DNA of 46,102 nt from positions 1 to 46,102 of the forward strand of contig JANYGC010000048.1 in assembly GCA_025359425.1 (NCBI GenBank), read 5' to 3'. The notes beneath the pieces were generated by a model. The model saw only the letters and a program-made list of their open reading frames with translations. It ran no database searches and was not told where the DNA came from. This document shows, piece after piece, positions 16,668 through 33,609 of this stretch. This DNA comes from Sphingomonadaceae bacterium. GTDB lineage: Bacteria > Pseudomonadota > Alphaproteobacteria > Sphingomonadales > Sphingomonadaceae. Made by a program: the position numbers and the translations under genes. The stretch's first letter is position 1; every line of letters begins with the position of its first letter.

Positions 16668-16671
16668 GGAG

Positions 16672-17206: not shown

Positions 17207-18184
17207 CTAGCGTACGCCCAGAGTAGCCGCCTGCTCGCGCAGCTGAGCCGCCTGCCCGGGATTTGCTGCCACCGCGTTGGCCAGGGTTTTGCGGGCCAGG
17301 TCGGGCTGGCCGAGCGTCATGCGGCTGCGGATGAGCATGATCCAGCCGTCAACATTGGCCGGATCGGCTTTGAGTTTGGCTTCGAGCCGGGCGACCATGC
17401 CCTCGGCCATGCCGCGTTGTTCAGACGGGCGCAGCGCTGACGCGCGGGCGATGTCTTCGTTGCTTGGCCCTGGCAGCACAGGCGGCGGTGCCGGAAGCTG
17501 CGCGGCGGGTTGCTCGACCGCAGCAAGCTGTTTGGCCACGGCGATATGGTTTATCTTGGCCGCCTGCGTAATCGTGCGCCGCAGGTCCGCTTCCCATGCC
17601 GCACCTGGCGGCGTATCGGCAAGCAGTGCCAGCCAGCTGTCGATAGCGCCCTGATGATCGCCGCCGAGGTCCTGCTTCACCGCAAGAAAATAGCGGGCGC
17701 GCGGGTCTTTTGGATCGAGCGCAACTGCGCGTTCGAAATCGGCTACGGCGGCGGCGGGCATCGGATCGTGCGCGCTGGCCATGACCCGCGCCTCGCCGCG
17801 CCCGGACCATAGCGAGGCTTGCTGCGGGGCCAGCTCCACGGCACGGTCGTAAGCGGTGACGGCCTCTTTAAAGCTCCCGGTTTCGAAATAGGCCCTGGCC
17901 AGCGCTGACCAAGCCTCACCGTCCTGGGGATTATCGCGGGTTTGCGCCTCCAACGCCAACAGCGGATCGACGATATCCAGCGTTTGAGCCGCTGGTGAGC
18001 CGGCTGCTCCTTCTGCGGCGCTCCCATGACGCCTGAGCGATACTCCGATGGCGTAACCAGCCACGAGGATTGCTACCAGCAAGACCAGTGTACTGACGCG
18101 CCAGCGTCGGGTCTGACCTTCTGCCATAGGTTTGCTCAACTTCATTGTTTGGTTGCCGCTGCGGCTTGCCAGCCATTCGTGCAA
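17207..18184 (-). CDS. CcmI/NrfG-like TPR protein (cytochrome c biogenesis type)
   Basis: This 325-residue protein has a short basic cytoplasmic N-terminus and one membrane helix (STLVLLVAILVAGYAIGVSL, about residues 31-50). TPR units follow (NPQDGEAWSALARAYFETG, LAPQQASLWSGRGEARVMA, LDPKDPRARYFLAVKQDLGG), then a proline-rich linker and a C-terminal TPR with MVARLEAKLKADPANVDGW. That last segment and its layout resemble CcmI/CycH, which holds apocytochrome c for heme attachment. The TTG at 18184 has GGAG eight bases upstream; ATG codons at 18145 and 18127 are alternatives. It is divergent from the oxidoreductase operon, where a dedicated chaperone for the 25-heme system makes sense. This role is inferred. 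Confidence 0.7.
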   Translation of the reverse strand: MHEWLASRSGNQTMKLSKPMAEGQTRRWRVSTLVLLVAILVAGYAIGVSLRRHGSAAEGAAGSPAAQTLDIVDPLLALEAQTRDNPQDGEAWSALARAYFETGSFKEAVTAYDRAVELAPQQASLWSGRGEARVMASAHDPMPAAAVADFERAVALDPKDPRARYFLAVKQDLGGDHQGAIDSWLALLADTPPGAAWEADLRRTITQAAKINHIAVAKQLAAVEQPAAQLPAPPPVLPGPSNEDIARASALRPSEQRGMAEGMVARLEAKLKADPANVDGWIMLIRSRMTLGQPDLARKTLANAVAANPGQAAQLREQAATLGVR

Positions 18185-18273: not shown

Positions 18274-20718
18274 GTGGCAGATCGCGTGCGCATTGCCATC
18301 GTCGGGTCCGGACCGGCCGGGCTTAGCGCGGCGGCGCGCGCAGCGGAGTTGGGGCTGAGCCATGTCTTGTTCGAAAAGAGCACGCATCTGTCCGACACAA
18401 TCTACAAATACCAGAAGGGCAAGCATGTCATGGCGACGCCCGCCGCGCTGGTGTTGCGGTCGGACCTGCCGTTCGATGCCGGCAAGCGAGAGGTGGTGCT
18501 TGGTGCGTGGGACCAGCAGGCAGAAAAGCAGGGCGTCTGCGTGCAACACAATGCAGATGTGCAAAGCATCACGGGCGGCGCGGGCAACTTCACAATCACG
18601 CTCAAGAACGGCGGCGAAGTCCTTGCCGAAACGGTAATTCTGGCGATCGGCACCCAGGGCAATCCCAACCTCGTGCGCTGCCCGGTGGGTGACGGCGCGG
18701 CGGTGCAGTATCAGCTCGACGACCCTGCAGAATATAACGACGAGCACATTTTCGTGATCGGCGGCGGCGATGCCGGGATCGAGAACGCACTGGGGCTTGC
18801 AGCCGACCCGGCACAGGGCAATGTGGTCAGCATTGTCAACCGTTCGGCCGATTTCGCCACCGCCAAGGACGCCAACGTCAAGGCTCTGTTCGCCGCGCGT
18901 GATGCCGGGCGGATGACGATCCACCTCGAAACCACCACCTCGCGGATCGACAAGGGCGAAGTCGCGCTGGATACCCGTGACGGCGAGGTCATCGTCCGCT
19001 GTGACCGGGTCATTGCGCGGATGGGTTCGGCCCCGCCACGCGCCTTTGTCGAGGCTTGCGGGATCGAATTCAGTGGTCCCGATCGGCTGGCGCTACCGGT
19101 GCTCTCCCCTTCGTTCGAATGCTCGGTTCCCGGCATTCATGTGATCGGCGCACTGGCGGGCTATCCGCTGATCAAACATTGTCTGAACCAGGGCTACGAT
19201 GTCGTTGAATACATCAGCGGAAACCGCAGCCTGAAGCCTGCTGACGAACCGATTCTCGCCGGCAAATTTGCTTCGCTGCCCGGACATCGCTCGGTGGCCG
19301 AATGGCTCACATTGCTGCGCAGCCAGATCGAGATTTTCCGCGAAGTCTCCCCGCTTCAACTCCGCGAGCTGATGCTTGACAGCGCCGCACGCAGCTTTGC
19401 GCCGGGTGAGGCGCTGTTTGTGCGCAATGACACTGGCTCGTCACTATTCGCGCTGGCCGAAGGTTCGGTGCTGGTCGAAATCGACAAGGACGATCCCGCC
19501 AAGGTTGTATCGATCGAACAGGGCCAGATCGTCGGCGAGGTCGGGCTGATTTCCGGACGCCGGCGCGGGGCAACGGTGCGCGCGGATGGGCCAGTGGTGG
19601 CGGTTGAACTTTCGCGCACCGCTGCGCTCAAGCTGATCGCCACTGTTCCGGCGGCCGGGCGCGCCATCGCGCGGGTTTCGATCGAGCGACAGCTGCTCCA
19701 GCTGTTCGGCTCGGGCCTGACCCGCGAGGATGTAACCGAAGTTGTCGAACTCGCCGAAGTGCAGACGATTCGGGCTGGAGATGTGGTGCTCACCGAAGGC
19801 GAGAATGGCAACGATATCTACGTTATCCGGCAAGGATCGATGATCGTCGAAAAGGCGATCGGCGGCAAACAGGTGTTCCTCAATTATCTACCCGCCGGGA
19901 GTTACGTCGGCGAAATGGCACTTCTCGATGGCACCCCGCGGGTTGCCACGGTCAAGGCGGCGGTGCGGTCCGAAGTGATCCGGTTGCCTGGTGATGCATT
20001 TGCCCGGTTGTTCGAGCGCAAGCCCGAGCTGCGCCGCAAAGCACTGGCTGACATGGCCGCACGGCGCGACATCAACGCCTTTATCGAAGGCCGCAAGGAC
20101 CAGTTCTCCGGCTCGGTCGACATGTATTCGCAGACCGCGCAGTTCCTGGTCGATAACGGCCTGGGCGAAGCAACCGATGTGCTGCTGATCGACGAAACGC
20201 TATGCATCGGCTGCGACAACTGCGAAAAAGCCTGCGCCGATAGCCACGATGGACTGACCCGGCTCAATCGCGAGGCCGGACGGACTTACGCCCATCTTCA
20301 CGTGCCCACATCCTGTCGCCACTGCGAGCACCCGCACTGTATGGCCGACTGCCCGCCCAATGCGATCACACGCGGTCCCGATGGTGAAGTCGTCATCGAT
20401 GACACCTGCATTGGCTGCGGCAATTGCCAGCGCAATTGCCCTTATGGCGTAATCCGGATGGACAGCATTCCGCCGCCAAAGCCGCCGCTGCTGTCGTGGC
20501 TGCTGTTCGGTGCCGGTCCCGGGCCAGGCGAGCCTTCTCACGCCTGGCGCAAGGAAAACGCGAAAGGCGCCGAGCAGCCCAAGAAGGCGATCAAATGTGA
20601 CATGTGCTCGGGGATCGAAGGCGGCCCGGCCTGCGTGCGTGCCTGCCCAACCGGTGCCGCGATCAGGGTTGCTCCGGAAGCCTTTCTTTCGGTGGCACGG
20701 CTGGCGAAAAACGACTGA
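18274..20718 (+). CDS. FAD oxidoreductase - 2x cyclic-nucleotide-binding - 4x[4Fe-4S] fusion
   Basis: This 814-residue cytoplasmic protein starts at GTG 18274 (GGGGAG upstream). Residues 1-320 form a thioredoxin-reductase/YpdA-like flavoprotein: FAD site GSGPAGLSAAARAAELG (11-27), TVILAIGTQG, second nucleotide site VIGGGDAGIENAL (161-173), and IHVIGALAGYPL. About 355-475 and 485-600 are two CRP-type cyclic-nucleotide-binding domains whose phosphate cassettes keep Glu and Arg (GEVGLISGRRRGATVRA; GEMALLDGTPRVATVKA). From 640 a DmsB/NrfC-like ferredoxin module has four cysteine sets: CIGCDNCEKAC, CRHCEHPHCMADC, CIGCGNCQRNC, and CDMC with PACVRACP. Predicted role: NAD(P)H to Fe-S electron transfer gated by cAMP or cGMP. 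It is first in an operon with a b-type cytochrome, an FHA-decaheme cytochrome and a phosphodiesterase. Confidence 0.88.
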   Translation: MADRVRIAIVGSGPAGLSAAARAAELGLSHVLFEKSTHLSDTIYKYQKGKHVMATPAALVLRSDLPFDAGKREVVLGAWDQQAEKQGVCVQHNADVQSITGGAGNFTITLKNGGEVLAETVILAIGTQGNPNLVRCPVGDGAAVQYQLDDPAEYNDEHIFVIGGGDAGIENALGLAADPAQGNVVSIVNRSADFATAKDANVKALFAARDAGRMTIHLETTTSRIDKGEVALDTRDGEVIVRCDRVIARMGSAPPRAFVEACGIEFSGPDRLALPVLSPSFECSVPGIHVIGALAGYPLIKHCLNQGYDVVEYISGNRSLKPADEPILAGKFASLPGHRSVAEWLTLLRSQIEIFREVSPLQLRELMLDSAARSFAPGEALFVRNDTGSSLFALAEGSVLVEIDKDDPAKVVSIEQGQIVGEVGLISGRRRGATVRADGPVVAVELSRTAALKLIATVPAAGRAIARVSIERQLLQLFGSGLTREDVTEVVELAEVQTIRAGDVVLTEGENGNDIYVIRQGSMIVEKAIGGKQVFLNYLPAGSYVGEMALLDGTPRVATVKAAVRSEVIRLPGDAFARLFERKPELRRKALADMAARRDINAFIEGRKDQFSGSVDMYSQTAQFLVDNGLGEATDVLLIDETLCIGCDNCEKACADSHDGLTRLNREAGRTYAHLHVPTSCRHCEHPHCMADCPPNAITRGPDGEVVIDDTCIGCGNCQRNCPYGVIRMDSIPPPKPPLLSWLLFGAGPGPGEPSHAWRKENAKGAEQPKKAIKCDMCSGIEGGPACVRACPTGAAIRVAPEAFLSVARLAKND

Positions 20719-21605
20719 TGGCCAGTAGTTCGCGCCCTTCGCGCTCAGGCGCAGCACAAACCGGGCGCCAACTCAACAGCGATCACGAAGGCTTCTTGCG
20801 CCATCGCAACTTCCGCTGGCTCAAGCGCGCAAGCGCTCTGTGCCTTGTCGCCATTCTCGCATACGCACTGATCGATGTGCAGCCCCGCCCGAACGGCGGA
20901 ACCTGGCTCGGGTACACTCTCGGCACTATCGGGCTCTTGCTGATCGTCTGGCTCTCGCTGCTAGGCGTACGCAAAAGGATGATGACGCGCGGGGCCTGGT
21001 CTCTCAAGGCCTGGACCTCGGCGCACGTCTACCTTGGCCTCGCGCTGATTGTGATTGCCACACTGCACACCGGCTTTGAATTCGGCTGGAACGTCCACAC
21101 GCTTGCCTATGCGCTGATGCTGCTGGTGATCGCCTCGGGCCTGTTTGGTGTCATCGCCTATTCGGTGCTGCCCGCTGCGCTCAGCAACAACCGCGAGGAG
21201 ATGACCCAGCCGCAGTTGGTCGAAGCACTTGGCGCAGTCGATCGCCAGCTGCAGAGCGCCGCGCAGCCGCTTGAACCCCGCTGGGCCGGGCAGGTCCTCG
21301 CCGCGCTTGGCGAAGGCCCATTTACCGGCGGCTTGTGGCAACGCCTGACTGGCACCAGGCAAGGCGGTGCGACCTTGCGAGCAATCGACGCCTTCAACAG
21401 TGCCAGCGCTGAAGAGGCTGACGATCCAGCCCTGGTCCGCGTCGAAGCGTTGCTCCAGAGACGCGCCGCTCAGCTCGCCCGGATGCGGCGGCATATGCGG
21501 CTCAAGGCGTTGCTCGAAGTCTGGCTCTACGTCCATGTTCCGGCGACCTTTGCTTTGCTCGCCGCTTTGACCGCTCACGTGATCAGCGTGTTCTACTACT
21601 GGTAG
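20718..21605 (+). CDS. Membrane b-type cytochrome
   Basis: This 295-residue integral membrane protein has four main hydrophobic helices: about 40-55, 65-84, 100-118 with a fourth at 128-150, and a last one at 272-293. Histidines sit in two pairs with identical 14-residue spacing: H103/H117 (SAHVYLGLALIVIATLHTG) and H273/H287 (VHVPATFALLAALTAHV). That is the pattern expected for two b-type hemes in a four-helix bundle, as in NrfD/NapH-linked or formate-dehydrogenase-type cytochromes. A soluble insert (150-255) lies between. Its ATG overlaps the oxidoreductase stop (TGATG), so translation is coupled. It is the natural quinone or heme link between the Fe-S protein and the periplasmic cytochrome. 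No close family was recognised. Confidence 0.75.
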   Translation: MASSSRPSRSGAAQTGRQLNSDHEGFLRHRNFRWLKRASALCLVAILAYALIDVQPRPNGGTWLGYTLGTIGLLLIVWLSLLGVRKRMMTRGAWSLKAWTSAHVYLGLALIVIATLHTGFEFGWNVHTLAYALMLLVIASGLFGVIAYSVLPAALSNNREEMTQPQLVEALGAVDRQLQSAAQPLEPRWAGQVLAALGEGPFTGGLWQRLTGTRQGGATLRAIDAFNSASAEEADDPALVRVEALLQRRAAQLARMRRHMRLKALLEVWLYVHVPATFALLAALTAHVISVFYYW

Positions 21606-21622
21606 CCGGGGGCGAGCGGGGC

Positions 21623-23323
21623 ATGATCTTTCGGCTCAGAACCACCCAGACCACCGCACAGGGACGCGAAATCGTGCGCGACCGCGAGGTCAGCGGGGAC
21701 CGCATCACGATCGGCCGCTCGGCCGAGAACACCCTGCACCTGCCCGATCTTGCCCTCGATCCGCATCATGCGGTGATCCAGGTCACCGAAAGCGGCAGGA
21801 TCGCGATCAAGGCATATGGTGCAACCGGGTTCGTGCTCGATGGCAGGAAAGTAGGCGAAGGGACGATCGATCCGCAGGCTGGCGGTGAACTTCGGTTTAG
21901 CAGCTATCGCGTTGCTGTTTCACAGTCCGACGATGGGGCAGTGCTGCTGAGCATAGGACAGATTGGCGAGGCAGTTGGCGACGAGACAGAGAAGGCCGGG
22001 TTTTCGCTCGCCGGGCGGCTGGCGGGCAAGCGGACAATGTCCTGGCTGCTGGGGCTCACAGTGCTGATTGCCTTCCTCGCGGTACCGATCATCAGCCAGA
22101 TGACGCGCGATCGGGCCGCCAAACAGGGCGTGGTCGGTGATGCGGCGTGGAGTTCGGGCCCGCTCAGCTTGGCGCACCATCAACTCGAGGGCAAATGCGA
22201 GGCCTGCCACGTCAAACCGTTTGAGGCGGTCCGCGATACGGCCTGCCTGACCTGCCACAAGGATGTCCACGAGCATGCCGCACCCGCCCGGCTGGCCAAT
22301 GCCCGCGGGCCCGGCAGCGCGAGCGACCAGATTGAGTGGCGGATCGCTCACCTGTTTGGCAAACCCGGCCCCGGGGCCTGTTCCGATTGCCATACCGAAC
22401 ATGAAGACGCCGGGCGGATGCCCCCTCCCGCCCAAGCCTTCTGTGGCGACTGCCACGGCTCGCTCAAGGAACGACTGCCCCACACCGAACTCGGCAACGC
22501 GACCGATTTCGGGAAGGTCCATCCCGAATTCCGCCCGTCGCTGGCACTCACAGTGGGCAGCGACCAACTGACCCGGGTCTCTCTGGCCGAGCATCCGCGT
22601 GAGGCGAGCGGGTTGACCTTCACGCACGACCAGCACCTCGATCCGCGCGGCGGGGTGGCTCAGATGGCGCAGCGGCTTGGCAAAGGGGCCGGCGGACTGG
22701 GTTGCGCTGATTGCCATCACCCAACCGCAGACGGGGTCCGCTTCCTGCCAATTGACATGGAGCGCGATTGCGAGGCGTGCCACAGCCTTGCCTATGACAA
22801 GGTCGGCGGGACCTTCCGGCGCCTGAAGCACGGCGATACCGACCAGATGATCGCAGATCTCTCGGTCGCGCCGCGCGCTGCCGCGCCAATCGTGACCGGA
22901 CGGGTGCGGCCCGGCGACTACGCCAACGGCGGGACCTATTTCGCCCGCTTTTCGCCGTCGGGCGGCGGGGTCGGATCGGTCACGCAAGCCTTATCACGCG
23001 ACGGGATTTGCGGCGAATGTCATACGCCAAGGCTGGCAGGCGGCCGCTTCTCGGTGGTGCCGGTGACCCAAACCATGCGCTTTTTAAATCACGGCTGGTT
23101 CAACCATGCCGCCCATAAAGAGGAAAAATGCACCAGCTGTCACGCCGCCGACCGCTCGAACTCGGCGAGCGACCTGCTGCTGCCCGATCTCAAATCGTGC
23201 CGCAGCTGCCATTCGGGCGAAGTGGCCCCGCGCGGCAAGGTTCCCTCGTCTTGCGCGATGTGCCACGATTATCATCTTAAGGCATTGGCCCCGCGCGGGG
23301 TCGAGCCACGGCGAAAACGATGA
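21623..23323 (+). CDS. FHA domain - TM - decaheme cytochrome c
   Basis: This 566-residue protein has three parts. Residues 1-110 form a cytoplasmic FHA domain (RITIGRSAENTLHLPD, then LDPHHAVI). The usual SRxH motif is changed to DPHH, so the phosphothreonine pocket is altered. Residues 139-158 are a membrane helix (MSWLLGLTVLIAFLAVPIIS). The rest is periplasmic with ten CXXCH heme motifs at about residues 192, 208, 253, 274, 361, 383, 463, 503, 526 and 544, plus many extra histidines as distal ligands. It would accept electrons from the neighbouring membrane cytochrome b. The FHA domain suggests input from a Ser/Thr kinase or assembly partner. It lies 17 bases after the cytochrome b gene, in the same operon. 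Confidence 0.9.
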   Translation: MIFRLRTTQTTAQGREIVRDREVSGDRITIGRSAENTLHLPDLALDPHHAVIQVTESGRIAIKAYGATGFVLDGRKVGEGTIDPQAGGELRFSSYRVAVSQSDDGAVLLSIGQIGEAVGDETEKAGFSLAGRLAGKRTMSWLLGLTVLIAFLAVPIISQMTRDRAAKQGVVGDAAWSSGPLSLAHHQLEGKCEACHVKPFEAVRDTACLTCHKDVHEHAAPARLANARGPGSASDQIEWRIAHLFGKPGPGACSDCHTEHEDAGRMPPPAQAFCGDCHGSLKERLPHTELGNATDFGKVHPEFRPSLALTVGSDQLTRVSLAEHPREASGLTFTHDQHLDPRGGVAQMAQRLGKGAGGLGCADCHHPTADGVRFLPIDMERDCEACHSLAYDKVGGTFRRLKHGDTDQMIADLSVAPRAAAPIVTGRVRPGDYANGGTYFARFSPSGGGVGSVTQALSRDGICGECHTPRLAGGRFSVVPVTQTMRFLNHGWFNHAAHKEEKCTSCHAADRSNSASDLLLPDLKSCRSCHSGEVAPRGKVPSSCAMCHDYHLKALAPRGVEPRRKR

Positions 23324-23339
23324 CGCGGGAGGTGCCCCG

Positions 23340-24197
23340 GTGCTGATCGCCCAGATCACCGATTGCCACATCGGTTTCTTCCGCAGCGATGTGGGCGGTG
23401 CCAATACGCGGCGGCTGCGCGCGGCGCTCGATCGGCTACGCGATGGCCCCAATCGCCCCGACCTGCTGCTGCTCTCGGGCGATCTCACCGAATTCGGCGA
23501 TGCGGCAAGCTATGCACGACTGGCGGCAATGCTGGCCGACCTGCCCTTCCCGGTCCACCTGATGGTCGGCAACCACGATGATCGCGATGCCTTGCAAGCG
23601 ACCTTTCCGGACACACCGTTCGACCAGGGTTTTGTGCAATACGTCCTGCCCTTGCCCGGACTGCGTCTGATCGCGCTCGATACGCTCGAGCCGGGACGGC
23701 ATGGCGGCGCATTCTGTGCTGAGCGGGCCCAATGGCTGAGCGACCAGCTTGACGCCGATCTGGTGACCCCGGTGGTGATCGCGATGCACCACCCCCCGAT
23801 TGCGGTTGGGCTGGACTGGCTCGACGGCGATGCTGACGCCGCGTGGATCGCCCGCTTCACCAAGGCAATCGCCGGACACCCGCAGATTCGGGCAATTCTC
23901 GCTGGACACCTGCACCGCACAATCCACGCGAGCGTTGTGGGTGTTCCGTTGACGATCTGCCCCTCAACCGCCCCGACTGTCGCGCTCAACCTGACCCCGG
24001 TAGACCCCGAGCGGCCCGATGGACGGGCGATGATCATCGACGAACCGGCAGCTTTTGCCTTGCACCGTTGGGAAGGCGAACGGCTGATCTCGCATTTCGA
24101 GAACCTGTCCGCTGGTCAACCCTGGGCCGTGCTCGCTGGCTATGACACAGCCTTCCAGGACCTCGTGCGCCTGAATGCCCGCGAGCGCCGCGGATGA
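23340..24197 (+). CDS. CpdA-like cyclic-nucleotide phosphodiesterase (metallophosphoesterase)
   Basis: The gene encodes 285 residues from GTG at 23340 (GGGAGG eight bases upstream). It carries all calcineurin-type metal motifs in order: ITDCHIG (D-x-H), LSGDLTEFGD, VGNHDDRDA, AMHHPP and LAGHLHRTIH. Length, spacing and the Leu-Ser-Gly-Asp-Leu-Thr-Glu segment match the class III 3',5'-cAMP phosphodiesterase family (CpdA/IcC, Rv0805). The enzyme would hydrolyse cAMP or cGMP in the cytoplasm. It is the last gene of the operon that starts with the cyclic-nucleotide-binding oxidoreductase. This suggests it resets the signal that the oxidoreductase senses; the substrate is inferred from family and context. 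Confidence 0.85.
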   Translation: MLIAQITDCHIGFFRSDVGGANTRRLRAALDRLRDGPNRPDLLLLSGDLTEFGDAASYARLAAMLADLPFPVHLMVGNHDDRDALQATFPDTPFDQGFVQYVLPLPGLRLIALDTLEPGRHGGAFCAERAQWLSDQLDADLVTPVVIAMHHPPIAVGLDWLDGDADAAWIARFTKAIAGHPQIRAILAGHLHRTIHASVVGVPLTICPSTAPTVALNLTPVDPERPDGRAMIIDEPAAFALHRWEGERLISHFENLSAGQPWAVLAGYDTAFQDLVRLNARERRG

Positions 24198-24207
24198 ATG
24201 GCGAGCT

Positions 24208-27200
24208 TTAGCGTGCGGCGCGCCAGGCGCTCATGTCGCCGTTGTCATTGACCCGGTAGAGGAAGCCCAGCTGGTTGAGGAACAGCTGCTCCATCTCAGG
24301 CCGGTTGAACGGGCGGGAGCCGAGCCGGCCGAAAACCGCGATCTGCCCTCCGGTTTCATCCACCGCGCGGTCGCGGTCGAGGCCCTTTGACATCGCAATG
24401 GCCGGCGACGGGGTCTTCGCCCAAGCGATCAATTCCGGCATCGGCGCAGGCGAAAAGCCGTAGAAGTTGCGCTGGCTTTCTGGCGAGGTCAGTTGCAGCA
24501 CTTTCATCCCGTTGCGACCATCCGCGACGTAGGCGAACAGCGAGGCGTTGGTCGAGGCGACCACAACGTCCTCGGCATCGTTGAGTTGTCCATCGAGGGT
24601 GACCTTCTGGTAAATCTGCGGGATGCGAGGGCGCGTGACATCGACAATCACCAGCCCGTCCGCCTTGGCCGCGACGTAAGCATAGGTGCGCGCGACATAG
24701 ACGTGCCGGGCATCGGCGAGCGGCACGGTTGCTTCGGGGACGGCGAGCGGATTGCGCAGGTCGGTAACGTCGAACAGCTTGAGCCCGTCGCGGTCGGTTA
24801 CCCACAAATAGCGGAACTGCACCGCGCTGGCCCGCGCATCGACCAGTTCCCGCACCGCAGCCAACCTGGGTTTGAGCGGGTCAGACAGGTCGACCGCGAC
24901 CAGGCCCTTGGTTGCGGTGATGTAAGCCACTTCGCCTGCGAGCACGATATGGCGCGCGCCGTTGAGCACCCCGTCGGGGTTCCAGGTCACCGCGCGCTGC
25001 AGCTTGTTGTTGCGAAACTCGCCGTCGGAGAAGGTGTCGATATCGACCAGGATCAGCCCTTCGACGCTGTCGGTGATCGCAGCGTAATTGTAGATCGGCA
25101 GGAACGGCTGTTCCTGGTTGGCGTCGCGCATTGCTGGCGTATTGCGTTCGGGCGCGATCGGCTGGTTGGTGGGCAGCGCCATGCAGGTCGCATCGGTGGT
25201 ATCGACTTGCGCGTCGCCGGCGAACGGGGCCGAGACGATCGGATCGGCGAAGCCCTTGTTGGCCACTGCCGCGACGTCATAGACGTGGAAGCCGCCCTTG
25301 CCTTGCGCGACGTACATATATTCGCCGCGCAGTTGCAGGCAGCCGACTTTGTCCGGCGTGCCCTGAACCACATTGCGGAATTGTTCGACCGGGTGACTGT
25401 CCCCCCCGCCGAGCGAAGCGGCGGGCTTGCCGCGCGTCCAGTTCTTGAGCTCGCGGCCGTTCTGCTCGACATGCATCCGGTAATAATCGGGGTAGGCATA
25501 GCGTTGCAGATAGGACCCGATCACCGCCTGCGGTTCGTCCCATTCGGTCACCCGCACCGCCTCGAGCCCGTTATCGAGCCCGGTCCAGGCGTTGAGGCCC
25601 AGGAAGTTGACGAAATTGGTGCCGAGCAACAGCGTCTGCGCCATGATCGCATTATTATCCTCGTTCATGCTGACGTGGCAATCGCTGCAAGTCTTGGTCT
25701 CTTGCGTGCGGACGGTATGCGGAAAATGCGGCGCGAAGGCCTGGCTTGAGAAGCCGGGCGCGCTGATTGGCGGTTGCTGGATATAGATCCGCTCGCGGCT
25801 GCTGTTGGTTGAGGACAGGATCAGCGCCGAGCTCGATCTGACCGGCGTCACCTCGCCGCCCTTGGTGGTCATATGCTTGCCGAGCTGAAACATGTCATCA
25901 CGCGCCACTTGCGGGTTGTAGGTTGCGAAATTGCGCGTTTCCTCACCCTCGAAATGGTTCGTCGATGTTTTCCAGTTGGCCTCAATCGGCAGGTGGCAGC
26001 CGCCACAACTGGTCGTCCAGGCGAGGTGGCACGAGAAGCAGGCGATCTTGCCATCCTGGTGCGCGCGGTCGGCCTTGGGCACTCCGGGCCCGAAGCCGAA
26101 GCTCCCGTCATCTGCCCCCGACCGGCTCATCAGCTTGGCGCGGGCGGCCTTGAGGTTGAAATTGGGCGACGCCGGATCGACGCTGTCCTTGGTCAGGTGC
26201 ACTTGCCATGAGAGATTAGGATCGATGATCGAGCGCTGGATCAGCACCCGCCGCCCAAACTCGTTATTGACCCATTCGAACCGGCGCTGGCCATCGGGGT
26301 TGCGGAGCAGGGCCAAATTGTTGCCCTTCGGCGGCGCGGCTGGCCCCGAAGTGAGCAGCTTGGGATAGGCATCGGCGGTGCCGTGGCAATCGGCGCAGCC
26401 GATTTCGACCGCGTTGGCGACCTCGCCATAGATCAACCCGTTGCCATGGCTGTCTTGCGCAAAGTGGCAATCGGCGCATTGCATGCCCTTCTCGGCATGA
26501 ATATCCATCAGGTGCACGCTCTTGCCCGGATTGACCCCCGGCGGGACGAACTTGCCCTGGCCCCGGGTGCGCCATTTCTCGGGATCGTCTGGCGATACAA
26601 TATGCGCGGTGTCGGTCCCCCAGGTCGCCTGCGCGCCGTCCGCGTCGAGCAGGTTCCCGGCCCGGTCGCGTTTGAACACACCGCGGAAATTCCAGCCGTG
26701 GCTGTGATAGTCGGCGAATTGCGTGTCCTTCAACTGCGGGTTGAGGTCATAGACATTGCGCAGGAAATCGACATCGCCCCACAGGCCCCGTGCCGCAGCA
26801 GCTTCGGGGTTGCGTTCGTTGACCGATCGGATTGTCGCGGCGTCGGGATAGCGCTGGTGCTTGTACAGTCGGTCGTAATCCGCATCGCTCATCCCGGGCG
26901 GGCGCGGGGTGCGGTTTTCAGGGCCGGGCCACATCGACGGCGCGTCAGCTTCATAGTCCCACATGGTGTACCCGAGGAACGAATTCACGAACACGTTGGG
27001 CTGGTGCATGTGGCAAGTCATGCACTGCGCGGTGGGGATCGCGCGGGTGAAGACGTGGCCGAGCGGATGGCCGGATTCCTTATCCAAGCCTGCGTCCGCG
27101 GAACCGTGATCGCCTTTAAGCCCGCCATGGCCGCTGGTCTTTTCGGCGATGGTCGGATCGACCGTGACGCTCTGTCCGTCGCGGCCGAACTGCGCGTAGA

Positions 27201-28254
27201 TCGAACTATGGCGCGGCTCGCGGTCGTTCGCGTAGATGACGTGGCAACCCGAACAGCCCGATCCGCGATAGTCGCCCGGCTGGTCGTTGGTCCCCATGAA
27301 CCACATGAACGGATCGTTGAGCCGGGTCTTGTGGATGTTGAGCACCGGGATGGCGACCCTGAGGCCGGTTCCCGGCCCGCGGTTCGATTGCTTGAGATCT
27401 GGCCGCCCCGGTTCCTCGAGCCGCTGGATCGAGCCGCTGGGGTTGGGCAGACCGACCTCGGCAAAGCCGGTGCCGTTATTCCGCCCGCCATCCTCGAACA
27501 CCCGGAACACATCGCCCGGCGGCACGACATTCCAGCGCGGCAAAGGGTAGAGCGCAGCCAGTGCACCACGCGCGGCCTGCCGTTTGCTGACCGTTCCCGG
27601 CGCGGCCACCTTCGCGGGCTTGCCGTCGCGGGTATAAGCCTCACCGAATATGTAGTTTTTGAGCGGGACAATCCCGTTGTTGTAGCTCGCTCCGCCCCAC
27701 AGCATCGCCCCGCTGGACATCAGCGAGCGCTCTGCGGCTTCGATTGTCGGCAAATGGCAGGCGCCGCAAGCCTCGCGCGCTGCACGGTAATCGCCGGGGT
27801 TGACGAACCGGACAAACTCCGGCGCTTCGCGGTTGAGCAAAGAATAGCCGCGCTGCGGATTGGCCGACGAGGGGAAATGCCAGGCCCCTGGGAACTGAGG
27901 CAGTACATGCGCCCGGTCACGCATTGCGGTGTAGGCAGGATCGCCGCGCGGAAGTGCGGGATCGCCGCGCACGCTGGCATCGCCGCCATGGCAATCGGTG
28001 CAGCCCAGCCGCACGGCGGGCGACACGTGCATGGTCGGCGCTTCGGTCTTGACGTGACACGATTGGCAGCCATCGGTCTTGGCCGCTGCCTGCTCTTCGG
28101 TTTGTCTGGCCGGGGCCGGTGGAGCCGTCACCAGTGCATAGTCACGCGCAATCTGCTTCTCACCCTCGCTGGCGCGGATGTTCGAGGAATGGAGCAGAAC
28201 GACCCCGGCGCAGATCAATGTGGCAAGGGCCAGGATAGCGCGCTGAAACGGCAT
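24208..28254 (-). CDS. Giant decaheme cytochrome c with C-terminal LVIVD propeller
   Basis: This 1348-residue exported protein has a signal peptide (residues 1-28) and ten CXXCH motifs at about 63, 85, 163, 334, 411, 593, 620, 739, 750 and 856. The hemes are separated by large insertions. From about 960 to 1300 the sequence becomes an LVIVD-type beta-propeller: repeats such as YMYVAQGKGGFHVYDV, AYITATKGLVAVDLSDP, YAYVAAKADGLVIVDVTRP and LFAYVADGRNGMKVLQL. No catalytic family is evident. Its ATG overlaps the stop of the outer-membrane barrel gene by one base, so it is probably exported to sit in or on that barrel at the cell surface. Alternatives are a periplasmic terminal reductase or an extracellular binding protein. 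Confidence 0.88.
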   Translation of the reverse strand: MPFQRAILALATLICAGVVLLHSSNIRASEGEKQIARDYALVTAPPAPARQTEEQAAAKTDGCQSCHVKTEAPTMHVSPAVRLGCTDCHGGDASVRGDPALPRGDPAYTAMRDRAHVLPQFPGAWHFPSSANPQRGYSLLNREAPEFVRFVNPGDYRAAREACGACHLPTIEAAERSLMSSGAMLWGGASYNNGIVPLKNYIFGEAYTRDGKPAKVAAPGTVSKRQAARGALAALYPLPRWNVVPPGDVFRVFEDGGRNNGTGFAEVGLPNPSGSIQRLEEPGRPDLKQSNRGPGTGLRVAIPVLNIHKTRLNDPFMWFMGTNDQPGDYRGSGCSGCHVIYANDREPRHSSIYAQFGRDGQSVTVDPTIAEKTSGHGGLKGDHGSADAGLDKESGHPLGHVFTRAIPTAQCMTCHMHQPNVFVNSFLGYTMWDYEADAPSMWPGPENRTPRPPGMSDADYDRLYKHQRYPDAATIRSVNERNPEAAAARGLWGDVDFLRNVYDLNPQLKDTQFADYHSHGWNFRGVFKRDRAGNLLDADGAQATWGTDTAHIVSPDDPEKWRTRGQGKFVPPGVNPGKSVHLMDIHAEKGMQCADCHFAQDSHGNGLIYGEVANAVEIGCADCHGTADAYPKLLTSGPAAPPKGNNLALLRNPDGQRRFEWVNNEFGRRVLIQRSIIDPNLSWQVHLTKDSVDPASPNFNLKAARAKLMSRSGADDGSFGFGPGVPKADRAHQDGKIACFSCHLAWTTSCGGCHLPIEANWKTSTNHFEGEETRNFATYNPQVARDDMFQLGKHMTTKGGEVTPVRSSSALILSSTNSSRERIYIQQPPISAPGFSSQAFAPHFPHTVRTQETKTCSDCHVSMNEDNNAIMAQTLLLGTNFVNFLGLNAWTGLDNGLEAVRVTEWDEPQAVIGSYLQRYAYPDYYRMHVEQNGRELKNWTRGKPAASLGGGDSHPVEQFRNVVQGTPDKVGCLQLRGEYMYVAQGKGGFHVYDVAAVANKGFADPIVSAPFAGDAQVDTTDATCMALPTNQPIAPERNTPAMRDANQEQPFLPIYNYAAITDSVEGLILVDIDTFSDGEFRNNKLQRAVTWNPDGVLNGARHIVLAGEVAYITATKGLVAVDLSDPLKPRLAAVRELVDARASAVQFRYLWVTDRDGLKLFDVTDLRNPLAVPEATVPLADARHVYVARTYAYVAAKADGLVIVDVTRPRIPQIYQKVTLDGQLNDAEDVVVASTNASLFAYVADGRNGMKVLQLTSPESQRNFYGFSPAPMPELIAWAKTPSPAIAMSKGLDRDRAVDETGGQIAVFGRLGSRPFNRPEMEQLFLNQLGFLYRVNDNGDMSAWRAAR

Positions 28255-30143
28255 CAGAAGGAGAATACCGTGTTGAGCAATACCGAATAGTACTTGTTAT
28301 GTCGCTGTGCGTTGTCGAACAGGTCCTGGAAACCGCCCCCGGGCAGCAGCGCCGCAGCCGATAACCGCAGCACAATATTCTGCGTCGCCTTTGGCCGCCA
28401 GATAGTCGAGAGCGAGAGATCCCAGCCGATATCTCGGGGGATGCTACCCTCATTGCGCAGATCCTGCAGGGTTGCGGTGTTGGCAAACCACAGATGATTG
28501 GCATTGACAGAGATACGCAAGGTCGGTCTCAGGTCGAAATCACCACCCAGACCGACCAGCACGGTCCCCGGATTGTTGAAGTTCGACTGGCCCTGCTCTT
28601 TGGACGAGCGCAGCGAATTGAGGATCCCGTTGCGGCCATTCACAGCAACTGCCCGCCCGCCACCGGCAAACGGAATGGTCTGGCGGATCCAGTATGAGGT
28701 GTCCGCCCCGGCAAACACCGGGTTCTCGAACACCGCGTCGAACCCGCCTTCGGTATTGTCGCGCGGGGCTGCATCACCGCTGGCGTATAACCCCGACAGG
28801 CGAATGCGTTTCCAGTCCTTGTCGTAGGATAGCTCGGCAGCCGCAAAGCTTGCCCGGATTTTCGCGGGGTTGCCGGTGAAAAAGCTGTTCCGATCCTGCC
28901 CCAGCGCGACATAGGTCGATCCGGTGAAGCCGAACCGGCCAATTCGCCCGTCGGCGTTGTAACCGAGATAGACCACATCGTATTCGCGTCCGCGCAACGT
29001 GCCGAGCAGCGCCGGGCGCACCGGAAATCCGTTGTCATCGACCTTGATTTGCCCGCCTTCGCGATTGCGGTTGTACACCACGGTCAGCTGACTGGTCAGC
29101 GCGGGCAGCGGGAAATCCTGGCGATAGAGGTTAGCGACGAACAGCCAGTCATTGCGCGGACGTTCGGTCACATTGTTGAGACCCGAATTGGTGTCTTTCT
29201 CCAGCCGCCAGAATGCCGCGAGGTTGTATTGCCAGCGGTTGCCGTCACGGTTGCCGAAAAAGCGCACGCCAAGCTGGTTATCGTTGAACAGGAAGCCGCG
29301 AAAATCGGACTGGAACGGCTGAATCCCAACCCGTACCGAGTCAAAATCGTAACGCACCGAGACATTGCGCAGGTGATAGTCGACGAACAATTCCTGCAGC
29401 CCGACAAAGTGATCGGCACGGTGGCTCGGCTTCGACGGATCGACAGACAGAACCCGGCGTTCGGGCACATCGACGTAGTTGAAATTGAACCCGAGCGCGA
29501 TCCGGTATTCGATCTCGGGCGGCTTGAACGCGGTGTTGCCCTTGGTCAGCGAGGCACTGACCACGAAAGTCTGCGAAAACACATAGCTCGCATCCTTGCC
29601 GAATACATCGAGGCCGCCAGGCCGCTCGGTGGTCTGCACGCCCACCGGGATCGGAAAGGTGCGCGGCTCCAGCACGGTGTCGGAGATCAGGCTGAGTGTC
29701 AGAAACCAGTCATCGCCCTTCAGAAAGCCGGGGCGCTTGCCCTCTGGCAAAGGCAGGTCACCCTTGAGCAGGTTCTGGTGAAAGGGGTCACGTTTCGAAT
29801 GGCAGACATGGCGCAGGTTGGGATAGAGTTCGATCAGCGTCTGGTCGGCACCTTTGACCGGGCACAGGCCGGTCATGATCCGCCAACGATCGGGCACAGG
29901 TATTTGATCGGTCGGAAAAGCCTCGGGCGGCGGGGCGCGCACTGCACCAGGATTATCTTGCGAAACCTGCTCAGGCAGCCCGGTCTCAAAGCCGGGGCGG
30001 CGGCGGCCCTCGATTACTTGCGGATCGACTTCGGGCGGACTGGCAACATCGGGATCGGCGACGGGTGGCGGCGGTGGAGGGGGCGGCTGCGGGTTCGTCG
30101 CTTGGGCCAGCAACAGCGGCAACAGAAGCGCCCCTGCCCCCAT
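28254..30143 (-). CDS. Outer-membrane beta-barrel protein (putative porin partner of decaheme cytochrome)
   Basis: This 629-residue protein has a short signal peptide (MGAGALLLPLLLAQA), a proline-rich linker, and from about residue 150 alternating amphipathic strands (FVVSASLTKG, YRIALGFNFNYVDV, VSVRYDFDSVRVGIQP, QYNLAAFWRLEKD, LRISVNANHLWFA). It ends in LLNTVFSF; a C-terminal aromatic residue is the outer-membrane insertion signal. Length fits a barrel of about 16-22 strands. Near the N-terminus lies a conserved-looking Cys pair (GLCPVKG and RHVCHSKRD). It is coupled by a TAATG overlap to the lipoprotein gene upstream and by TGATG to the decaheme gene downstream. The role as a cytochrome-holding porin, like MtrB or PioB, is inferred from context; no MtrB signature was seen. 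Confidence 0.8.
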   Translation of the reverse strand: MGAGALLLPLLLAQATNPQPPPPPPPPVADPDVASPPEVDPQVIEGRRRPGFETGLPEQVSQDNPGAVRAPPPEAFPTDQIPVPDRWRIMTGLCPVKGADQTLIELYPNLRHVCHSKRDPFHQNLLKGDLPLPEGKRPGFLKGDDWFLTLSLISDTVLEPRTFPIPVGVQTTERPGGLDVFGKDASYVFSQTFVVSASLTKGNTAFKPPEIEYRIALGFNFNYVDVPERRVLSVDPSKPSHRADHFVGLQELFVDYHLRNVSVRYDFDSVRVGIQPFQSDFRGFLFNDNQLGVRFFGNRDGNRWQYNLAAFWRLEKDTNSGLNNVTERPRNDWLFVANLYRQDFPLPALTSQLTVVYNRNREGGQIKVDDNGFPVRPALLGTLRGREYDVVYLGYNADGRIGRFGFTGSTYVALGQDRNSFFTGNPAKIRASFAAAELSYDKDWKRIRLSGLYASGDAAPRDNTEGGFDAVFENPVFAGADTSYWIRQTIPFAGGGRAVAVNGRNGILNSLRSSKEQGQSNFNNPGTVLVGLGGDFDLRPTLRISVNANHLWFANTATLQDLRNEGSIPRDIGWDLSLSTIWRPKATQNIVLRLSAAALLPGGGFQDLFDNAQRHNKYYSVLLNTVFSF

Positions 30144-32125
30144 TACAAGCCCTGACAGACATTCTGCGCATCGCTGCCGATAAGCGGCGCGAACGGACAG
30201 CTGACATAGCGCAGCCGCGCCGTCCTGCCCCCGCCGAGGTTGAACACGAGGGTGTCGGCGCGGACCGCAGAAGGTGCATTGCCAAGCGTGCCGAGTATTG
30301 TGCCGGCGTTGTTCAGCCCAAGGAAGGCGATCATGTCATCCTGGTCGATCCCGTCGCCCGAGACCCCGATCGCACCGATCAGCGTGTTGCCGCGGTAGAT
30401 CGGTACTCCGCCGGCAAAGATCTGGATGCCATTTTGCAGGCGGTTTTGCCCCGGCCTCGCGTCCGGAATAAAGCTGCACCGTGCCGGTGTATCGCTGCCG
30501 CTCGCCCCGGTGACGAAGTTGAGGTGCTGGCCAAGGTTGGATAGAACCAGCGCCGATTGCAGTCCGGTCGAGAACGGGCTCCACTTGGCAATCGGGCGCG
30601 ACAAGGGTCCGTTGGGACGCGCGACTTCGCCATCGGGGAAATAGGGCCGCGACAGGTTGCCGATCGCGCGTGAAGAAAACGCCAGTTGCCCGGTAAGCGC
30701 GGCCGGGTCAGCGAAGAAGCCGCGGATTGCGGGAACGAAGCTGCGAACATCCGGACTGGGATCGGCCAGCAGCTGCGTGGCGGCGTTGGGATTGGTGAAA
30801 AACGCCGCTGTGCGGGCCTTCTGGAGCGAAACGTCGATACCGAAGATGGGCGCGTCGGGCGAGCGGACCAGCCCTAATGCCACCCCGCGCGTATCGACCA
30901 GAGAAATCGTCACTTGCGCCCGGCTGTCGAGCGGCTGCCGGATCTGGGCCCGGGCATGTGCCATTGTACTGAACGCCTGCTCGAGAATGCGTTGCGCTTC
31001 GAGCGCCGAGATCGGCGTGCCCACTTCGGCGCCGTCACTGCCCGCGCGCAGCGGGAAGCGGTTGATGCCCGAGCCGTTGCTGAGGACGAATGCGTCGCTG
31101 GTGGCAAATTCGGCAGCGGTCGCTTGGCGCACCCCGGAGGCTTCGCTGCCATAGATTGCGCCTGACAGGACCGCTGCGACCGGGAAATAGCCGATAACCG
31201 GGGTCAGGCCCCCAAGCGCCGGGACAGTTGCCGCATAACTCGCCCCGGCAACATTGGTCAAACCGGAATAGTCTGTGTCGGTATAGCGCAACGAAGTGCC
31301 GTCGACCGAAATCCGGTTGGCGCGAACTTCGAGCGGTGCCTCGTACCCGACAGTTCCGGCAAGGCCGCTACGCTCGTCGGTGTCGCTGTCCACATCGAGC
31401 ACATCAGGGTCGAACCCATAGATGCCGTCCCCCAGAACGCCGACCCCGCCGACCACCACACCGTTCTTGTAGAGCGGGAACCCGCCGGGATCGGCCGACA
31501 GCCCGAGCGGTGAGCGCTTCGGCCCGATCAGGGTGGCCGGACCCGAAGCCAGCCGCGCGGCGAGGTCGGAGCAGGGCAATTGGCTGAATTGCACCCCGAA
31601 CAACGGGCCGCTCTCAAGCCCGACGGTCGACGCCGCAGGCGGAAAGCGCTGCTGGACGATCATGCTCGCGGTGCGGGTGGAAAAAGCGTTGCCACTGCTG
31701 GACAGGTAAGCCCCGGTAATCGCCTTGGCGATCGCGGCGGCTTCGGCAGGCACGTTCAGTCCCTGGATGTCCTGCTGCGAACCATCCGCCGCCCGGGGTA
31801 TCGCGGCAAGTGCCGGAGCGCCGGTCATGCGCAGCACGGCGAGCACATTGCCGACCCGGTCTGTCACCGCGATCACTGCCGGCCGGTTGTCGGCTTGCGC
31901 TTGCGCGGCGGCCTGTGCCAGCACCGCCTGCACATCGATCACGGATAACGACTGCGCCGCCGGAGCGGTGTAGAACGATCCCGTCGGCGGCACTGGAGCT
32001 GGCGTGGGTGTGGGCGTAACCCCGCCGCCGCCGCCCGAGCCGCCGCCGGCACTTCCACCGCTCCCGCAGGCCGCAAGATTGAGCAGCGCCAGCCAGCCCA
32101 CAAGATGTGCGACCCGGTTCCTCAT
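30143..32125 (-). CDS. Lipoprotein with two HbpS/GlcG-like domains
   Basis: This 660-residue protein has a lipobox (LNLAAC, acylated Cys at residue 20), then a glycine- and proline/threonine-rich flexible linker. Two similar domains follow. The first (about 55-250) has VIDVQAVLAQAAAQAQ, VIAVTDRVGNVLAV and GGVGVLGDGIYGFD. The second (about 380-620) has SALEAQRILEQAFSTM, ISLVDTRGVALGLV and IGAIGVSGDGIDQDD. These are signatures of the HbpS/GlcG/PduO-C fold, which binds heme in HbpS. Mature Cys occur near PCSDL, ARCSF and VSCPF. It overlaps the c554-like gene by four bases and the barrel gene by one. A heme- or redox-related surface role is inferred. Confidence 0.8.
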   Translation of the reverse strand: MRNRVAHLVGWLALLNLAACGSGGSAGGGSGGGGGVTPTPTPAPVPPTGSFYTAPAAQSLSVIDVQAVLAQAAAQAQADNRPAVIAVTDRVGNVLAVLRMTGAPALAAIPRAADGSQQDIQGLNVPAEAAAIAKAITGAYLSSSGNAFSTRTASMIVQQRFPPAASTVGLESGPLFGVQFSQLPCSDLAARLASGPATLIGPKRSPLGLSADPGGFPLYKNGVVVGGVGVLGDGIYGFDPDVLDVDSDTDERSGLAGTVGYEAPLEVRANRISVDGTSLRYTDTDYSGLTNVAGASYAATVPALGGLTPVIGYFPVAAVLSGAIYGSEASGVRQATAAEFATSDAFVLSNGSGINRFPLRAGSDGAEVGTPISALEAQRILEQAFSTMAHARAQIRQPLDSRAQVTISLVDTRGVALGLVRSPDAPIFGIDVSLQKARTAAFFTNPNAATQLLADPSPDVRSFVPAIRGFFADPAALTGQLAFSSRAIGNLSRPYFPDGEVARPNGPLSRPIAKWSPFSTGLQSALVLSNLGQHLNFVTGASGSDTPARCSFIPDARPGQNRLQNGIQIFAGGVPIYRGNTLIGAIGVSGDGIDQDDMIAFLGLNNAGTILGTLGNAPSAVRADTLVFNLGGGRTARLRYVSCPFAPLIGSDAQNVCQGL

Positions 32126-33477
32126 CGCAGCGCCCCGATGGCATTGACCGCCTGCCGCAACGCCGCCCGGAAAGCGCCCGGATTGTATTCTGCCGGGCTC
32201 GCCACTGCCGCGTAGGCGCGGTTTATACTCGCGCGAATCCCGGCTGCGGCGCCAACCGTGATCCGGCCTTCGCGGACCAGCAAGTTCAGCAGTGTATCGA
32301 CCGCCATGACTGACTGGGCCGATCCCGCGTAATCGGTGAAGCGTGCGGAAATCGCCCGACCGCCGATCGCGGCGATGACCCGGAAAGCGGGGTCGCTCCC
32401 GCCGGGCCCGCGCGCGAGTGCGTCGCCGAGCGCGCCTGCCGCCCCGCCCAGCCGCCCCGCAGCCGCTATTGCAGCAGGGCGCCCCGTGCCCATCGCAGCG
32501 TGGAAATTGCGCGCCGCGGCGTCGAATTGCGCGGCTTCGCCCGGCGCCAGGACCTGCGCCACAGCTGAGAGCATAATGATGTTCTCGTCATTGTAAGGCG
32601 GCTGCCCGAATGAAATTGGTCGAGCCGGATTGGTCTCAAACGTCCGTGCCCGCTCTGGATTGTCGTCGATCCCGCGATGGCAGCTGTGGCAATCGTAGAA
32701 CGTGAATTCGGGAAATATCCCGTTGTTGGCCAGATCAGCTCGCCCAAACAAGCTGAGCGAGCGTTGGACCGCCTCGGCCTGGCCCACGGCCCACAGCCGA
32801 ACACTGTCGCTGGAAGGTTTGCGCGCGGTGTAATCGACGTCCGCGTCCCAATGCTGCTGAAGCGAGGAGAACAGGTCGAGCTCGAATGACAGCCGCGGAT
32901 GCCCTGCGGCCATCATCGAATGGGTGACAAACTGCCCGGGTTGGCCGCTGCCAAGGTGGCAATCAAGACAGACCGCAGCGCGAACTTTGGGATTGTCGAG
33001 CGCGTTCATGCCGCCAGCGACGTTGCCCGCATGGCTCGCTCCGACTGCATAATGGCTGGCAATCCAGCCCGACGCCGGGCCGTGGCAGCCTTCGCAGCCG
33101 ACCCCATCGGAAATCAGGAAACGGTCACCGCGCGCCCCTGCCGGGGTGGCATGGCAGCCAAGGCAGGCAGCTGCCGACCCGGCCGGACCAAGCCCCAGCG
33201 TACTTGCAATCCGCTCGCCGCGCAGTGACGTCAGCGCCGCATATGTGCGGCTGTGTGCGCCGCCGCGCGATGAGGGTTCCTGCCACAACCGAAGTTCATC
33301 CTGGCGGACGACCTTGCCATCGCCATCGGCGCGGCCATGGCAGGTCGAACCGGCGCAACTGGCGACGCCTTCATACCGGCCTGAAGCAAGAGCTGCCCCG
33401 GTCGCCACACCGGCAAGTGCAGCCGCACCGAAAAGCGCAATCAGCCAGCGACGAAACGCAGTTCCGATACTCGGCAT
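32122..33477 (-). CDS. Pentaheme c554-like cytochrome c
   Basis: The protein has 451 residues from the ATG at 33477, preceded by GGGAGGG; the frame extends to 33606 but that part has no signal peptide. A signal peptide ends near residue 31 (AALA-SGRYEG). Heme motifs: one CX4CH (CAGSTCH at 41), then CLGCH (105), CEGCH (128), CLDCH (170) and CHSCH (263). The arrangement, including SDGVGCEGCHGPASGW and MMAAGHPRLSFELD, matches the cytochrome c554/c-prime family. The C-terminal 180 residues are alpha-helical and heme-free. It is the first gene of the minus-strand outer-membrane operon and could shuttle electrons through the periplasm between the inner-membrane decaheme cytochrome and the barrel complex. 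Confidence 0.88.
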   Translation of the reverse strand: MPSIGTAFRRWLIALFGAAALAGVATGAALASGRYEGVASCAGSTCHGRADGDGKVVRQDELRLWQEPSSRGGAHSRTYAALTSLRGERIASTLGLGPAGSAAACLGCHATPAGARGDRFLISDGVGCEGCHGPASGWIASHYAVGASHAGNVAGGMNALDNPKVRAAVCLDCHLGSGQPGQFVTHSMMAAGHPRLSFELDLFSSLQQHWDADVDYTARKPSSDSVRLWAVGQAEAVQRSLSLFGRADLANNGIFPEFTFYDCHSCHRGIDDNPERARTFETNPARPISFGQPPYNDENIIMLSAVAQVLAPGEAAQFDAAARNFHAAMGTGRPAAIAAAGRLGGAAGALGDALARGPGGSDPAFRVIAAIGGRAISARFTDYAGSAQSVMAVDTLLNLLVREGRITVGAAAGIRASINRAYAAVASPAEYNPGAFRAALRQAVNAIGALR

Positions 33478-33609
33478 CAGGCCCTCCCACCGGCGCGCAG
33501 TCTGGCATGGTGGGCCGCTGGGAGCAAGCTGGTCGTCACCGCTTTGCTCCGTTGCCACCCTGACCCGCGCGGCCCATAAGCCCAGCCGATGGGGAGTGGT
33601 CTGCAAGCG

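Follow-up and report, generated by a model that had tools for sequence, protein, structure and literature searches.

Contig JANYGC010000048.1 of a Sphingomonadaceae bacterium (assembly GCA_025359425.1), the 46,102 nucleotides of which are referred to here as the window, carries two convergent operons, A on the + strand (18274-24197) and B on the - strand (24208-33477), that on balance appear to encode a trans-envelope electron conduit whose cytoplasmic entry enzyme would be switched by cyclic adenosine monophosphate (cAMP) from adjacent predicted enzymes. Operon A encodes the entry protein, a membrane cytochrome b, a decaheme cytochrome c with an FHA domain, and a phosphodiesterase; operon B encodes a C554-like cytochrome, an HbpS-like lipoprotein, a predicted outer-membrane barrel and a giant decaheme cytochrome (Table 1), and 10 bases separate the end of the phosphodiesterase gene from that of the giant. 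Seven of these genes, in two facing operons, had been listed in a first-pass annotation of the same DNA, and their presence is confirmed, with cofactor and domain assignments that agree with Pfam; the list had lacked the CpdA-type phosphodiesterase of the same operon, two CHASE2 cyclases and the FHA domain of the decaheme.

Cofactor motifs of the inner module

In Pfam, the entry protein matches two cyclic-nucleotide-binding (CNB) stretches (cNMP_binding), Rossmann domains for flavin adenine dinucleotide (FAD) and for nicotinamide adenine dinucleotide or its phosphate (NAD(P)), Fer4 domains, and PF13247 (E 2.6e-10). An alignment of 21 entry proteins, which are 59-71% identical to that of the window, shows no variation in the 16 cysteines of the iron-sulfur (Fe-S) clusters, in the glycine motifs for FAD and NAD(P) or in either CNB cassette (G421 E422 R431; G546 E547 R556). 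Of the proteins with a solved structure, a large multi-domain chain from a protozoan comes nearest to the CNB stretch, followed by regulatory subunits of PKA, and subunit 2 of formate hydrogenlyase comes nearest to the Fe-S stretch.

The entry gene lies directly upstream of the cytochrome b gene, and in L216 (genome G509; G and L numbers are our handles for genomes and loci) the two proteins are fused in one frame of 1118 residues (7850-11203, + strand). Hydrophobic segments were found in the cytochrome b of the window; W99-H103-H117, G141 and G144, and W269-H273-H287 are invariant in 21 sequences, with S140 nearly so, which is a two-heme pattern. Its two HX13H pairs are present, and Pfam returns no match to the ferric reductase family (FRD), only a weak, unrelated one; a sequence search of the PDB with the cytochrome b alignment gave no matches. 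In the third protein, a single hydrophobic segment (139-157) lies between the FHA domain, where G31, R32 and H49 are invariant in 41 sequences and the remaining positions vary, and a cytochrome c7/c3 region with ten CXXCH motifs, a number kept in 40/40 family members and in 15/15 from other families.

Since these cofactor motifs are conserved across relatives, the gene set is not a chance assembly. Three of the first-pass calls are borne out in the same way: a fusion of FAD, two cNMP-binding and four [4Fe-4S] elements, a bis-His membrane cytochrome b (His 103, 117, 273 and 287) and a membrane-anchored decaheme c.

Co-inheritance of the two operons

Of 199 genomes of the family, 72 have the barrel; 71 of them also have the entry protein, which was not found in any of the 127 genomes without the barrel, and the one exception (G022) is 67% complete. 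In a class sample of 289 genomes, 26 have the entry protein, among them all 20 that have the barrel, and in a phylum sample of 398 genomes the two are again nested (barrel in 12, entry protein in 15). The first-pass annotation had drawn a single chain through both operons, and in these genomes the operons do hold together as a set instead of occurring independently.

At 40 barrel loci taken from the 72 genomes, the C554 and giant genes are always present and the HbpS gene is present in 39. Half of the 40 stretches also contain operon A, each time with its phosphodiesterase; the remaining 20 do not contain it, apart from a lone phosphodiesterase gene in one of them. Detached entry loci keep the entry, cytochrome b and FHA-decaheme genes in 20/20 cases and the phosphodiesterase in 17/20. 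The class sample has 17 barrel genomes from outside the family, of which 15 yielded usable loci (G205 was left out). In all 15, tblastn places the six core genes on one strand; the entry gene opens the series in 14 and closes it in L194, and C554 is present in 7. A sixteenth out-of-family locus (L213) is a contig fragment with the barrel, giant, entry and C554 genes, and two loci outside the class (L217, L218) show the same gene set, the giant of L217 lying beyond the fetched stretch. Among 80 named loci, many of them cut by contig ends, the giant is found in 79, HbpS in 76, C554 in 71, cytochrome b in 43 and the phosphodiesterase in 42. Taken together, these counts support both operons as one co-inherited system, and the arrangements may be read as one ancestral operon that was later split in sphingomonads.

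The proposed cAMP circuit

The two CHASE2 class III cyclases of the window, the first of which lies on the strand opposite to C554, with approximately 110 bases between the two start positions, are the only PF00211 matches in this 94%-complete genome. Cyclases of class III (the class to which the counts refer) occur in 40/40 conduit holders, picked for long contigs out of 72, versus 3/40 non-holders, drawn from the 127 by order of handle with one congener added; for the phosphodiesterase of the operon A type the corresponding figures are 40/40 and 2/40. The two non-holders with this phosphodiesterase (G011, G038) have a class III cyclase as well. Across the 40 holders there are 87 class III cyclase matches, one of them below the cut-off, and a cyclase lies within 25 kilobases (kb) of the barrel in 34 genomes, where random placement expects 1.3, and in 12 of the 13 genomes that have a single cyclase. 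Where operon A lacks the phosphodiesterase (G072, G030, G173), this enzyme is encoded within 400 bases of a cyclase domain, and in five genera from which both holders and non-holders were tested (g1, g29, g37, g38, g54), conduit, cyclase and phosphodiesterase are together present or together absent.

Both kinds of enzyme keep their catalytic residues. The metal Asp pair, Lys, Asn and Arg are found in 34/34 aligned cyclases, and the type of window cyclase 2 recurs in ten loci at 55-85% identity, apart from a distant match in L058. An apparent absence of the catalytic motif from the conduit-adjoining cyclase of Sphingobium herbicidovorans was rejected, as the pattern was too strict and the alignment shows the residues kept. 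The motif DxH, GD, GNHD, H, GHxH is the metal motif of class III (CpdA-type) cyclic nucleotide phosphodiesterases; it is invariant in 36 sequences of the present enzyme and in 14 of a further alignment, and NCBIfam gives 151 bits for SpdA and 72 bits for a cAMP phosphodiesterase, both under their cut-offs. Taken with the invariant CNB cassettes, these patterns strongly indicate, at the level of sequence, a cyclic-nucleotide input to the conduit, a link stronger than the one proposed in the first pass, and cAMP would then gate the entry protein itself.

The same circuit could instead work on transcription through CRP-type regulators and accompany the conduit by coincidence; the entry protein would then have CNB domains that are structural or bind something else. 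In Shewanella oneidensis, cAMP-CRP is described, in the part of the source available, as activating the transcription of omcA and mtrC (PMC4417206), and the genome studied here has three further CNB matches, in frames of 225-249 residues, one below the family cut-off. We regard this explanation as unlikely, given that both canonical cassettes do not vary among entry proteins of such divergence and that the phosphodiesterase shares the operon in all linked loci and in most detached ones.

A use of the cyclases in Pycsar defence was also considered. PADLOC matches both of them to PycC, and a membrane protein resembling PycTM, a Pycsar effector, is encoded at 16570-17205 (+), with PADLOC and Pfam matches. 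This reading was dropped because the PycTM-like gene lies approximately 16 kb off, on the other side of the conduit, and because the cyclases track the conduit elsewhere.

The outer set

The C554-like cytochrome matches its Pfam family and has four CXXCH motifs; the Cys, Cys and His of an additional CX4CH site are invariant in 41 sequences, and the pentaheme of the first pass stands only if this site is counted as the fifth heme. The HbpS-like lipoprotein and the giant decaheme c were named correctly: the former has a Pfam HbpS-like match and a lipobox Cys20 that is invariant in 40 sequences, and ten CXXCH motifs are present in the giant of the window and in 15/15 giants from other families. 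Among the family giants listed, L060 and L066 have 8 and 9, both with late called starts. The conserved histidines of the giant suffice for two ligands per heme, Pfam finds LVIVD repeats, there is a signal segment, and a sequence search of the PDB with the giant alignment gave no matches.

The outer-membrane protein is predicted to be a barrel. The evidence for this fold is an AlphaFold2 model of middling confidence (predicted local distance difference test, pLDDT, 69), with approximately 18 strands and with AlgE and OprD-type solute channels as nearest structures; the window protein has no Pfam match. No MtrB-type Pfam family was detected in any of 30 barrel members up to E 1, and MtrB is not among the best 50 matches listed for the model by Foldseek or by VIA, an absence that is no proof on its own. 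Because the model is AlgE-like, with some 18 strands, a decaheme threaded through the barrel as in MtrAB is doubtful; it is the outer set that would carry electrons across the outer membrane.

This fold also suits a periplasmic redox enzyme system, in which a barrel of the AlgE/OprD kind would admit a soluble substrate and the giant would reduce or oxidise it in the periplasm. The resemblance of the model to solute channels speaks for such a system, as does the still putative surface location of the giant, which has a signal segment. It nevertheless seems improbable, since the conserved histidines could ligate every heme on both sides, leaving no obvious open site, and since an unrelated pentaheme and a barrel-like protein accompany the inner module in other genomes, as would fit interchangeable outer conduits.

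Proposed mechanism and direction of flow

In the mechanism proposed here, electrons would pass from reduced NAD(P) (NAD(P)H) to the FAD and then to the four [4Fe-4S] clusters of the entry protein, cross the inner membrane by way of the two hemes b to the FHA-anchored decaheme, and reach the outer set, formed by the C554-like cytochrome, the HbpS-like lipoprotein, the AlgE-like barrel and the giant. The CHASE2 cyclases would sense an extracytoplasmic cue and make cAMP, which would bind the tandem CNB domains and open the entry enzyme, and the phosphodiesterase would reset it. The flow would be outward, as a means of electron disposal to an external acceptor. This direction is preferred because outward transfer runs with the membrane potential, because an exporter that is always open would drain NAD(P)H, and because the order NAD(P)H-FAD-heme b resembles that of ferric reductases and NADPH oxidases. 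The passage across the outer membrane would be the least certain step, given a barrel predicted to be narrower than MtrB.

The same conduit might run inward and deliver electrons from an external donor such as Fe(II), Mn(II) or a cathode to NAD(P)+ or quinone, a direction that has been suggested for PCC3 and PCC4. In the available text on those systems, the models have an extracellular donor feeding the quinone pool, and quinone activity is possible for the two-heme cytochrome b (PMC5566968). Inward flow nevertheless has a low probability in our view: the step from the periplasm to NAD(P)+ opposes the membrane potential, and the entry protein has motifs for both FAD and NAD(P) and in L216 shares a single frame with the cytochrome b.

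A fuller version of the outward scheme can be put forward only tentatively, with somewhat less than even confidence. The conduit would be an exporter with a second messenger acting directly on an electron-carrying protein: CHASE2 cyclases and a dedicated phosphodiesterase would set the cAMP level, opening a tandem-CNB NAD(P)H dehydrogenase that feeds the cytochrome b, the FHA-decaheme and a non-Mtr outer set up to the surface, and nearly the whole class III cAMP toolkit of sphingomonads would serve this machine.

Several observations weigh against the cAMP-switched conduit proposed here. On the structural side, the 18 strands of the barrel model look narrow for an Mtr-like insertion, and the AlphaFold2 model of the giant has a pLDDT of 48 and was excluded from fold searches. 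As to the cAMP circuit, six of the 40 holders have no cyclase within 25 kb, the cyclases found close by fall into two or more types (like window cyclase 2 and like the CHASE2 cyclase of pMSHV), and shared ancestry inflates the contrast between holders and non-holders. At the 15 out-of-family loci, tblastn detected neither the phosphodiesterase (0/15) nor a cyclase (0/15); a pattern search of the entry sequences or fragments of those loci found both CNB motifs in 11/15 and one in 4/15, L197 and L206 showing only the first and two short fragments only the second. Finally, nine genomes of the class and phylum samples have the entry protein without this barrel.

The nine are of several kinds. The contig edge of G222 falls inside HbpS, G317 has the entry gene alone, and in G249 and G453 the inner module is accompanied by a C554-like gene within the stretch read. 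G484, G509 and G617 belong to other classes, and G617 has an open frame similar in length to the fusion of G509. In G257 (L209) and G302 (L210), the inner module lies beside one or more tetrahemes of the C554 type, a pentaheme and another barrel-like protein (identified by eye; no Pfam match), a layout that fits the published description of PCC4, including its 4-, 5- and 10-heme cytochromes. The window barrel did not match the barrel-like proteins of L209 and L210 by tblastn (E 1e-4). The inner module thus looks like a reusable electron injector, with at least two outer sets as partners.

Gene inventory and neighbouring genes

Table 1. Features of the conduit locus and its surroundings (window positions).
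Feature	Position	Strand	Details and basis
Entry protein	18274..20718	+	814 residues; FAD and NAD(P) Rossmann domains, two CNB domains, four [4Fe-4S]; Pfam
Membrane cytochrome b, predicted two hemes b	20718..21605	+	Invariant Trp/His motifs; hydrophobic segments
FHA domain, one membrane segment and decaheme cytochrome c	21623..23323	+	Pfam FHA, cytochrome c7/c3; 10 CXXCH
Predicted CpdA-type class III cyclic nucleotide phosphodiesterase	23340..24197	+	Metallophos (Pfam); start inferred from relatives
Giant cytochrome: signal segment, 10 CXXCH, C-terminal LVIVD repeat region	24208..28254	-	Pfam; motif count
Outer-membrane beta-barrel, AlgE-like, ~18 strands predicted	28254..30143	-	AlphaFold2 model
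HbpS-like lipoprotein	30143..32125	-	Pfam HbpS-like; lipobox Cys20
C554-like cytochrome	32122..33477	-	Pfam C554; 4 CXXCH + 1 CX4CH
CHASE2 class III cyclase 1	33589..35445	+	Pfam CHASE2 and Guanylate_cyc; catalytic Asp, Lys-Asp, Asn, Arg present
CHASE2 class III cyclase 2	36871..39111	+	Pfam; catalytic residues present; relatives adjoin conduit in other loci
TPR protein, CcmH/CycH (cytochrome c maturation) TPR family	17207..18184	-	Pfam TPR_CcmH_CycH; frequent entry-gene neighbour

A gene of the TPR_CcmH_CycH type is present in 18 of the 20 detached entry-gene loci. Between both cyclases (35460-36868, +) lie genes for an SH3-domain protein and an M48 peptidase, found by tblastn in 1 and 2 of 120 loci, respectively. 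Upstream of C554, many loci share frames of approximately 477 residues (aldehyde dehydrogenase-like) and 451 residues (glutamate dehydrogenase-like), both named by eye, and a glutamate dehydrogenase with a Pfam match is encoded at 15312-16664 of the window. A two-partner secretion pair, made up of a ShlB/FhaC transporter and an exoprotein of 2092 residues, lies directly upstream of C554 in L221 (4530-12683) and in several other loci, and relatives of the exoprotein occur in 19 of 120 loci (tblastn). A mobile element near the conduit is represented at 3678-14100 by a TIR-TPR protein, a fragment of an IS240-type transposase and a run of Trb/VirB conjugation genes, and a short frame at 41077-41511 (-) matches the RNaseH-like domain of phage terminases.

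Spread and significance

Sphingomonads are common soil and water bacteria. A scan of GTDB confirmed at least 552 stretches, and the best 80 come from Sphingomonadales (for example Novosphingobium, Sphingobium, Sphingopyxis, Sphingomonas, Erythrobacter and Blastomonas), except for one labelled only Pseudomonadota. In a protein collection, 7058 of 7997 scored candidates match the giant; the best 120 of these 7058, where named, are called hypothetical, LVIVD repeat-containing, cytochrome c3 family or multiheme cytochrome. Thirteen plasmid records carry the giant, including pMSHV of Sphingobium herbicidovorans MH, on which the gene set is encoded.

No description of a surface electron conduit in sphingomonads was found among the literature matches listed. 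If the proposal is true, about a third of the sampled genomes of the family (72/199), together with relatives in other families and classes, own such a conduit, and the nucleotide switch sits in its entry enzyme and not only in promoters. It would also give a reason for cAMP signalling in sphingomonads, one that is open to test.

Comparison with known systems

The conduit shares with MtrCAB, MtoAB and PioAB the combination of a barrel, multiheme cytochromes and an electron source in the inner membrane. Electrons enter conduits of the MtrCAB type through a CymA-type quinol oxidase, whereas the entry enzyme described here uses FAD and Fe-S clusters, and its barrel, of approximately 18 predicted strands, is not recognisable as a member of the MtrB family. 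NADPH oxidases and ferric reductases offer the same order of NAD(P)H, FAD and two hemes b, the HX13H pairs and electrons pushed outward; the present system differs in having no Pfam FRD match and in its additional Fe-S clusters, CNB domains and multiheme chain. With AlgE and OprD-type barrels the barrel model shares the 18-strand fold.

The closest relative of the inner half is PCC4, predicted by He et al. (2017) from Fe(II) oxidizers, with an Fe-S gene upstream of the inner membrane protein (PMC5566968). As far as the available text of that paper goes, both systems have an inner membrane protein that carries SGxxG and a pair of WX3HX13H motifs, an upstream Fe-S gene of pfam13247, a 10-heme cytochrome and a porin; in PCC4 the 4-heme and 5-heme cytochromes are separate proteins and a large additional decaheme is absent, whereas the window has one C554-like protein, the HbpS-like lipoprotein, the AlgE-like barrel, the giant, and a cyclase and phosphodiesterase. 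The word "cyclic" is absent from the main text of the paper. The design is thus not wholly separate, as the first-pass annotation had inferred: the outer module differs, and the inner half matches this description of PCC4. PCC3 resembles the window in its inner membrane protein of approximately 300 residues and the same motif type, its porin and its two large multihemes, but in the text available its cytochromes have medians of 34 and 21 hemes and its porins up to 42 strands (PMC5566968), compared with 10 and 10 hemes and about 18 strands here.

In Shewanella, cAMP also controls surface electron transfer, there via transcription, according to the part of the source available (PMC4417206); here it would act through CNB domains within a predicted electron-carrying protein. 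The clusters of Desulfovibrio ferrophilus contain NHL proteins and, in the available text, no apparent porin conduit (PMC9769857). "Sphingomon" is absent from the main text of PMC11475568, the word LVIVD was not found in the related literature among the matches listed, and the literature searched gave no paper that links CNB domains with multihemes and porins or with Fe-S flavoproteins. We regard the combination as a new form of predicted porin-cytochrome conduit: an inner module of the PCC4 type, a different outer module and a dedicated cAMP circuit.

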